Below are positions 62,740 to 64,000 of a DNA stretch of 64,000 nucleotides, piece by piece (position 1 is the stretch's first letter; every line of letters starts with the position of its first letter). Under the pieces are notes generated by a model. The model did no database searches. It was not told the origin of the DNA and worked only from the letters and a program-made list of their open reading frames with translations. The position numbers and the translations under genes were made by a program. Source of the DNA: Pseudomonas entomophila (lineage in GTDB: Bacteria > Pseudomonadota > Gammaproteobacteria > Pseudomonadales > Pseudomonadaceae); NCBI RefSeq assembly GCF_018417595.1, contig NZ_CP070982.1:372001-436000 (forward strand), in the 5' to 3' direction.

Positions 62740-63054
62740 CTACCGCAAAGTAGACAGGTGCTCGACGGTTTCCGGGTACTTTTGCACCAGTCGGATAAGG
62801 GCCACGGCCTGGGCGTTGGGCTTGGAGCGCCCCTGTTCCCAGTTTTCAAGGGTGCGAACGTTGGTACGCAAGTAAGCGGCGAACACCGCGCGCGACATGT
62901 TGAGCTGCTGGCGCAGGTCGGTAAGCTCGTTCGGGGCCAAGGGGGCCAGTTCCTCGAAGGCGACCTTGTGCGAACGCAAGGTCAGCTTGCCGGTACGTTC
63001 CTCGGCCAGGGCGTCGAAGCCTTCGGTGAGCTCAGTGAAGATGTTGCGTGGCAT
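62740..63054 (-). CDS. HigA2-type antitoxin (XRE-family HTH)
   Basis: A 104-residue protein. An N-terminal toxin-binding segment (FTELTEGFDALAEERTGKLT) is followed by an HTH (DLRQQLNMSRAVFAAYLRTN, then RTLENWEQGRSKPN), as in HigA2 of Vibrio. It should neutralise the upstream toxin and repress the operon. Its ATG lies 26 bp after the present toxin stop; in the undamaged reading frame the toxin would overlap it by about 23 bp. Confidence 0.9.
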   Translation of the reverse strand: MPRNIFTELTEGFDALAEERTGKLTLRSHKVAFEELAPLAPNELTDLRQQLNMSRAVFAAYLRTNVRTLENWEQGRSKPNAQAVALIRLVQKYPETVEHLSTLR

Positions 63055-63080
63055 TGGTCGTCCTCATCAGGTATTCGTGC

Positions 63081-63395
63081 TCAAGCAGCTGTTTCAGCGC
63101 TTGGCACTGCTGTGGCGTCAAGGTCGTCCTGGACTTCCTTGCCGCAGAGCGTGAAGAGCCAGAACTGCTGCCCGGTGGACCACCAGTAGTAGATGATCCG
63201 GATTCCGCCTCGCTTGCCTTTGTGGCGCATTGTGTTGGCGAAGCGCATTTTCCTGAGACCACCTGTGCCCTTGATGACATCACCGATGTGGGGATGCATG
63301 AGGAGCAATCGTTGCAGCAGGCGGAAATCGGTGTCGTCGAGGTATTGGCTGCGGTGGCGCTCGAAAGCAGGTAGTTCAACGAATAGGGCGTCCAT
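63081..63395 (-). CDS. HigB2/RelE-type toxin with shifted C-terminus
   Basis: A 104-residue product as now encoded. The body is HigB2-like: FVELPAFERHRSQYLDD, HPHIGDVIKGTGGLRKMRF, KGKRGGIRIIYYW and FTLCGKEVQDDL. Family members go on after this with DL-(N/T)-x-x-Q-(x)n-L. That continuation (TPQQCQALKQLLEHEYLM) is present in the next frame, joined by removal of one T at 63120-63121. So a one-base insertion swaps the last residues for DATAVPSAETAA. The core ribonuclease fold is largely kept; activity is uncertain. Start at 63395 (MDALFVEL). Confidence 0.82.
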   Translation of the reverse strand: MDALFVELPAFERHRSQYLDDTDFRLLQRLLLMHPHIGDVIKGTGGLRKMRFANTMRHKGKRGGIRIIYYWWSTGQQFWLFTLCGKEVQDDLDATAVPSAETAA

Positions 63396-63404
63396 ATTTT
63401 GTAC

Positions 63405-63420
63405 GCTATCTACGTATAGC
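63405..63420. promoter_or_regulatory. Probable operator of the toxin-antitoxin operon
   Basis: GCTAT-N6-ATAGC lies 10 bases before the toxin ATG. Antitoxins of this family bind such dyads to autoregulate. Within the spacer sits CTACGT. Confidence 0.55.
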
Positions 63421-63676
63421 TTCTGATGGGATGGCCGGCGCGTCAATAGGGCGAGCCCGTTTCAGCCTAAGCGCAGATCTGGCGAGGAGGAGTGGGGGAG
63501 AATTGCTGGATGTGTCGTGAAACCGTGGGTTTAGAGGGGGGCAGGCCGGTGTAAGACGTTGGATCCTGTGGGTCCTCTCAGCCATTTCCTACATATGAGA
63601 TTTTGATTGGGACCTATCCTACAAGCCGTGCCGTCTCGGTCCGGCTTCCAAGGTATCTATTCGCGGTTAACTTTTG
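63421..63676. other. Intergenic region without recognised gene
   Basis: About 255 bases between the toxin operator and the structured RNA region. No open frame with family similarity, tRNA or repeat was seen. The promoter of the downstream leader and gene probably lies near its right end (TTGATT at about 63604-63609 is a possible -35-like element). Confidence 0.4.
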
Positions 63677-63822
63677 CCGGTCACCGCACATTCGGTGACC
63701 GGGCGTGAGAACCCGATACCAACTTGAGCGCCGAGGCGTGCGTTATGGCAGCCCTGCGCGGGCAGGCTTTTGCCTGGCCGGTTTCCAAGTTGGCCGGATT
63801 CTCACCCCGCGTATGGCTGCCA
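63677..63822 (+). ncRNA. Candidate structured leader RNA with pseudoknot
   Basis: A perfect 10-bp hairpin, CCGGTCACCG/CGGTGACCGG (63677-63686 with 63693-63702), is followed by nested helices: GTGAGAA (63705-63711) with TTCTCAC (63799-63805) and CCAACTTG (63719-63726) with CAAGTTGG (63786-63793). Inside lies a CAGGC-TTTT-GCCTG hairpin (about 63763-63776). Another pairing, TGGCAGCC-CTG-CGCGGG (63746-63762) with CCCGCG-TAT-GGCTGCCA (63806-63822), crosses these helices, so it is a pseudoknot or an alternative fold. It lies about 60 bases before the gene at 63885. No known riboswitch consensus was recognised. Confidence 0.65.
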
Positions 63823-63884
63823 CCTTGATCCCGTGAGAAGGATGCAGAGGGCAGTTATCCCAGACTCAACTTGGATACTGCGCT

Positions 63885-64000
63885 ATGAAAAAGATCGTCC
63901 CAGACCCACCCCTGAAGTTGAACCCCACCACCGAGCAGTCCTTCTGCACCTGCCAGTCCAGCCACCCACCGATCTTCACCGTCCGCCCCGGCGTCGACGC
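63885..64000 (+). CDS. DUF3077/DUF6124-type small protein (partial, cut by right edge)
   Basis: Thirty-eight codons are visible from ATG 63885: MKKIVPDPPLKLNP, then cysteines in FCTCQSS and FTVRPGVDA. The KKIVPDPP start and FxVRPGV motif are typical of a family of small Pseudomonas proteins of unknown function that usually occur in several copies per genome. The ATG follows a structured leader by about 60 bases. The remainder lies beyond the window. Confidence 0.75.
   Translation, partial: MKKIVPDPPLKLNPTTEQSFCTCQSSHPPIFTVRPGVD

Follow-up and report, generated by a model that had tools for sequence, protein, structure and literature searches.

The RNA encoded in front of the p1 gene of Pseudomonas entomophila belongs to the C4 antisense RNA family (RF01695), and the locus is very probably a self-silencing unit that resembles c4-icd-ant of phage P1 and has settled in the chromosome. 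The two loops of this C4 RNA, a' and b', pair twice: upstream with a1 and b1, and again downstream with a2 and b2 of the p1 leader. As judged from sequence, the RNA is probably an antisense repressor of the p1 start. Coordinates of the features (Table 1) refer to the window, i.e. the whole stretch of 64,000 nucleotides that was analysed.

Structure and family assignment of the RNA

The initial annotation described at 63677-63884 a folded RNA combining a perfect 10-bp hairpin, two nested helices of 7-8 bp, an inner hairpin and a crossing helix of 14 bp, and offered no named RNA class for it; a match to a known Rfam family was to count against the proposal. The structural elements are all present in the sequence. 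The nested helices correspond to a1/a' (7 bp) and b1/b' (8 bp), the inner hairpin to P2 of C4, and the crossing helix to the C4 stem P1, which in the fold of C4 alone consists of 16 pairs (one G-U) and one mismatch instead of 14 pairs. The RNA does belong to a named class, with a C4 match over the Rfam gathering cut-off (70.4 bits versus 45). The folded RNA was correctly recognized; the last part of its span, 63828-63884, is instead the a2/b2 leader of the gene. The upstream segment resembles the c4-a1b1 leader (RF03163), with a score 0.2 bits under the cut-off, and its a1 and b1 are complementary to a' and b'. A second candidate for this leader, the Gifsy-1 prophage RNA isrK (RF01394), was rejected, the weak likeness (27.1 bits) being far under the cut-off of 50.

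Table 1. Features of the C4 locus, in window coordinates
Feature	Position	Strand	Basis or remark
Direct repeat TCCTACA, two copies 30 bases apart	63587-63623	+	only such pair found in the window
c4-a1b1 leader, with the 10-bp hairpin and a1	63667-63719	+	RF03163, 46.5 bits (cut-off 46.7)
Perfect 10-bp hairpin	63677-63686 with 63693-63702	+	loop CACATT
a1/a' helix, 7 bp	a1 63705-63711, a' 63799-63805	+	complementarity
b1/b' helix, 8 bp	b1 63719-63726, b' 63786-63793	+	complementarity and predicted fold
C4 antisense RNA	63741-63827	+	RF01695 match, 70.4 bits (cut-off 45); covariation across 23 paralogues
C4 stem P1	63746-63762 with 63806-63822	+	fold of C4 alone
C4 hairpin P2	63763-63776	+	C4 family layout
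C4 P3 with b' loop	loop 63784-63793	+	C4 family layout
a2	63833-63839	+	complementary to a', 7 bp
b2	63866-63875	+	complementary to b', 10 pairs, one G-U
p1, 96-aa DUF3077-type gene	63885-64000, runs past the window (L018:3145-3435)	+	ATG at 63885

The folding of 63677-63884 is beyond chance, as had been proposed: its energy of -103.6 kcal/mol compares with a mean of -76.5 (sd 4.5, z -5.98), and none of 200 dinucleotide shuffles was as good. C4 alone (-48.5 kcal/mol, z -5.12 versus shuffles) folds into the family shape. The signal is weaker for 63703-63827 (z -2.85, 4 of 200 shuffles as good) and for the leader 63828-63890 (z -1.97, 7 of 200). With the upstream segment attached to C4, the minimum-energy fold has a1/a' and b1/b' paired and the stem P1 open. 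Since C4 alone forms this stem and the longer RNA opens it, the crossing helices are two exclusive states rather than one pseudoknot. Among the two possibilities put forward initially, the predicted folds thus retain the exclusive folds; the reading as a single pseudoknot was dropped after the Rfam match to C4.

The C4 helices are retained via compensatory changes, which the annotation had taken as the property to look for. Across 23 paralogues of the same genome, 95.1% of the cells are paired and a two-sided change is observed at 18 of the 27 C4 pairs, a proportion reached by none of 500 shuffles; the weakest stem is P3 (85.1% of cells paired). A TGG at the expected 5' site of RNase P is invariant in these 23 paralogues, an observation that is compatible with cleavage by this enzyme and goes no further. 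A leader with two predicted exclusive folds could also be expected of a ligand-sensing riboswitch, a ribozyme or some other cis leader, the first two of which had been suggested initially. We consider this extremely improbable: the RNA belongs to a known antisense family, and its loops vary among loci yet still match b1 and b2, unlike a ligand pocket. Nothing points to a riboswitch or a ribozyme, and the evidence points to an antisense RNA with the downstream gene as its target.

Genes and genomes associated with C4

The p1 gene lies directly behind the RNA, b2 ending nine bases upstream of its ATG, and the proposed tie to a DUF3077-type gene is borne out by a weak match: p1 scores 22.6 bits against DUF3077 (PF11275), barely over the cut-off of 21 and for residues 19-65 only, and 21.1 bits against DUF6124, under the cut-off of 27. 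The dN/dS ratio is 0.08-0.12 versus five relatives, and dN is 0 versus a sixth; on these sequence comparisons p1 is under purifying selection. Among the 54 relatives of p1 that were found, two are labelled Pantoea; all others that carry a species or genus name are Pseudomonas. The predicted structure (mean pLDDT 80.1, pTM 0.62) comprises a loose N-terminus and a soluble-looking helical hairpin, and this model had no PDB match at E <= 0.001. No match was obtained with PADLOC, and NCBIfam gave nothing useful.

The C4 RNA of the window is one of 23 C4 matches dispersed over the chromosome of its genome, 22 of them over the cut-off. Matches to c4-a1b1 number 22 in the same genome; 20 are located at C4 loci, and 9 exceed the cut-off. 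A small ORF with a (I/V/L)(V/I)PDPP motif, most often starting M(L/K)KIVPDPP, is present behind 21 of the 23 C4s and absent downstream of the remaining two, C03 and C04. The corresponding DNA pattern has 19 matches in the genome, all at C4 loci, versus 0 for a reversed-pattern control. As to DUF3077, 17 of its 22 matches in the genome are located at most 2 kb downstream of a C4, on the same strand; one of the other five is behind a broken C4 (L031) and four are elsewhere, including one 2.3 kb behind C21. At six of the 21 loci the PDPP-motif ORF and a second small ORF share four bases; at two of these six, C08 and C20, the first ORF has just 18 or 25 aa. In phage P1, icd overlaps ant, and there is coupled termination of downstream genes; by analogy, a short first ORF overlapping a second recalls the c4-icd-ant operon.

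Two C4s of this genome, C15 and C22 (L023), are 1.6 kb apart. The broken locus, L031:3001-3548 (G000:C1:4974085-4974632), contains an a1b1 leader, an apparent 5' half of C4 and a DUF3077 gene, and no full C4; a second a1b1 match is present about 1 kb further on the opposite strand, and a nearby ORF resembles a transposase.

C4 is widespread in the genus, with a match in 92 of the 99 sampled genomes. Eight of these 99 contain at least 39 C4 matches each, and one of the eight (G005), scored more fully, contains 42 (39 over the cut-off). Sampling of the order gave C4 in 14 of 96 genomes, including that of the window; the remaining 13 lie outside the genus and contain between one and six matches each. 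The association was also examined starting from the protein. We kept the best 80 of 128 stretches encoding relatives of the p1 alignment, all labelled Pseudomonas; a C4 was present 43-68 bases before the start at all 79 loci with upstream sequence, L140 being left out as this sequence is missing. The position of the window locus is conserved: its neighbours are the same in records labelled P. entomophila COR5, P. mosselii, P. soli, P. peradeniyensis, P. sichuanensis and P. reidholzensis.

The PDPP-motif pattern is present in 59 of the 99 genomes and occurs three times in G005, so not every C4 has a p1-type protein. To categorize the genes behind C4 more widely, we considered 60 C4s of other Pseudomonas genomes, taken from the top of the score-ordered matches listed and hence biased to high-scoring C4s. 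Their first ORFs comprise 18 matches to DUF6124, 6 to DUF3077 and 5 to Bro-N (one protein may match several families), the rest being without Pfam family. In 20 of the 60 cases the first ORF is no longer than 57 aa and overlaps the second via ATGA; 23 second ORFs were scanned, yielding 2 DUF3077 and 1 DUF6124. Bro-N and KilA-N are phage antirepressor domains, and for Bro-N the annotation of the matches agrees. The original P1/P7 setting of C4, an immunity role over an antirepressor gene, does not apply at the window, where the target is DUF3077-type; Bro-N targets are present at five of these 60 loci.

High-scoring C4s precede a Bro-N protein at L039, L041, L042, L044, L045 and L048; the protein has 175 aa, except in L044 (62 aa). 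Of the loci found, these come closest to the arrangement with ant in phages. Outside the genus, at L232 and L233, C4 precedes KilA-N proteins of 190 aa. Tandem C4s were also observed, three in L187 and two each in L152 and L175.

Carriage of the window locus type by phages or plasmids was considered and rejected, there being no p1 match in plasmids or viral contigs and no p2 match in phages: p1 had no tblastn match in plasmids, none of the 27 stretches of viral contigs with the pattern was confirmed as a p1 relative, and two p2 proteins had no tblastn match in phages. One DUF6124-type relative is found in a phage-collection record (EU982300), and PHROGs gave one strong match for a p2, to a family of unknown function.

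The TCCTACA repeat upstream of the leader is possibly a shared regulator site, as far as its recurrence suggests. TCCTAC-N24-TCCTAC is present upstream of 18 of the 79 named loci, and in 48 of them TCCTAC falls in a 26-base bin that starts 130 bases upstream of C4. TCCTAC is also located 113-124 bases before C4 in 7 of the 23 loci of the window's genome, and is rare upstream of the 60 C4s of other genomes. Adjoining the C4 locus, on the minus strand (62740-63446), are two small ORFs that on visual inspection resemble a toxin-antitoxin pair of the HigA/HigB type; this stretch is not aligned in some relatives. The window also contains NrsZ, a nitrogen-regulated small RNA (RF02695, 43093-43234, minus strand, 84 bits versus a cut-off of 76.9).

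An antisense RNA that covers the start region of a small gene, with many paralogues per genome, is reminiscent of type I toxin-antitoxin systems, in which an RNA would likewise block translation of a small protein. Each locus could then be a type I-like module, with C4 as the RNA antitoxin of a growth-arresting p1 or overlapping second gene; Icd, encoded at the same place in phage P1, is described as an inhibitor of cell division (PMC8198154). We nevertheless hold this to be unlikely. Unlike the small toxins of type I systems, the p1 protein is not hydrophobic, its highest 19-residue hydropathy being 0.90 (two of 19 paralogues exceed 1.6), its model is that of a soluble-looking helical hairpin, and PADLOC is without match. 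Moreover, C4 is located on the same strand as the gene and before it, and not opposite to it as in type I systems.

Matching of C4 loops with their own leaders

Each b' loop was compared with its own leader and with the leaders of the other loci, using a permutation test. Because all compared leaders precede genes, the control includes any generic pairing with ribosome-binding sequences; the pairing energies take no account of accessibility, and the loops were delimited by hand for the 23 C4s of the window's genome and by a heuristic script otherwise. In that genome, the mean energy of b' with its own leader is -12.94 kcal/mol versus -6.93 for the others (0 of 20,000 permutations), and the own leader ranks first for 18 of the 23 loops. 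The b'/b2 pair of the window is first of 23 in both directions. With b1, 7 of the 23 loops rank their own site first (0 of 20,000). The ranks depend on how the segments are cut: 16 of 23 loops are first with a fixed 80-base leader, and 5 of 23 are first versus b2 when the loop window includes stem bases, the mean still beating all 20,000 permutations. Seen from the leaders, the own C4 is the best partner in just 11 of 23 cases, so that cross-talk between loci is not excluded.

The same tendency was observed in the other sets, each with 0 of 10,000 permutations. The 60 high-scoring C4s of other Pseudomonas genomes provide 38 distinct loops, of which 30 rank first; 30 of the 42 C4s of G005 provide 29, of which 17 rank first; and the 79 named loci provide 56, of which 23 rank first and 34 are among the top three (9 rank first versus b1). 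Outside the genus, 15 C4s rank first among 19 of the 20 that were fetched; L225 is left out, as no loop or leader was detected there by the script. For a', 6 of the 23 loops of the window's genome rank first versus a2 and 6 versus a1 (0 of 10,000 each); few a' rank alone because some seven kinds of a' exist. By sequence complementarity, then, most C4s appear to suit their own gene best, and the b sites appear for the most part to have changed in step among paralogues.

Single loci were followed through their orthologues. In four orthologues of the window locus (L135-L138), the b' loop has diverged strongly, with matching differences in b1 and b2. Taken alone, the orthologues of the window locus give no significant result for b2 (949 of 10,000 permutations) and a weak one for b1 (322 of 10,000), this test having only 5 distinct loops, including some that are one loop cut in different ways. 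At C13 (25 orthologues, 17 loops), 0 of 10,000 permutations were obtained for both b2 and b1, with 8 and 10 loops first, respectively; for the C11 locus (14 orthologues, 5 loops), the counts are 184 of 10,000 for b2 and 439 of 10,000 for b1.

These comparisons bear on the proposal that chromosomal C4s act mainly in trans, silencing C4-regulated genes of incoming phages, the gene behind them being secondary. C4 confers immunity in P1/P7, and a role of this kind is among the possibilities raised for Acinetobacter (PMC5320573). It is however quite improbable as the main function here, where b' loops track their own downstream leader, the ORF is under purifying selection, and no p1 relative was found in plasmids or viral contigs.

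Proposed mechanism and relation to known systems

For the self-silencing unit that we favour, we infer that a1b1, C4 and p1 lie on one transcript, from which RNase P would cut out C4, by analogy with the C4 of phage P1, whose processing and pairing are described in PMC5320573. In the free C4, a' would pair with a2 and b' with b2, covering the ribosome-binding region. Translation of p1 would then be blocked, and at other loci also that of the overlapping second gene; any action of p1 is putative as well. In the uncut precursor, a1 and b1 could pair with a' and b' instead, opening the stem P1.

The locus shares with the C4 and c4-a1b1 of phages P1/P7 the layout of stems P1, P2 and P3, the a' and b' loops, a1 and b1 upstream and a2/b2 at the start region of the gene, and at other loci the short first ORF overlapping a second (organisation of the c4-icd-ant operon: PMC8198154). 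It differs from them in its gene, which is DUF3077-type and neither icd nor ant, and in being chromosomal, with a position kept between species and tens of paralogues per genome. Group 1 C4-like sRNAs of Acinetobacter baumannii, compared by description, likewise form a multicopy chromosomal set, of 21 members, with an upstream stem-loop whose loop is CACAUU as in the window; their targets are left open in that description, whereas here the gene behind is a matched candidate target (PMC5320573). C4 itself, listed for Proteobacteria and phages (PMC2864571), its presence in Pseudomonadales (PMC5320573, citing Weinberg 2010) and the multicopy Acinetobacter set are thus already known. DUF3077 is mentioned in PMC9630843 as a mutated pseudogene. 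Our literature search, in which subscription papers were mostly outside scope, yielded no paper that links C4 with DUF3077 or DUF6124 or describes the Pseudomonas set.

A broader reading can be offered tentatively, as speculation that we consider somewhat unlikely: in Pseudomonas, the phage immunity switch would have become a host-wide set of about 20-40 largely insulated antisense switches, which hold small proteins silent and act as sentinels. If this is true, the silenced proteins would be DUF3077, DUF6124 and others. The natural trigger would be removal of C4, because C4 would share the transcript of its target; it could be e.g. a foreign RNA with a matching a/b site, or blocked RNase P processing. 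An invader titrating one C4 would then release small effector proteins, and b1, b' and b2 would change together because of selection against cross-talk.

At the level of the self-silencing unit, the association described here would give a regulatory context to DUF3077 and DUF6124, two protein families of unknown function, and would provide a rule for locating the targets of C4 RNAs outside phages, namely at the start of the gene that follows. Since a single cell contains tens of such paralogous pairs of RNA and target, diverged and mostly matched, the evolution of antisense specificity and of cross-talk can be tested directly.
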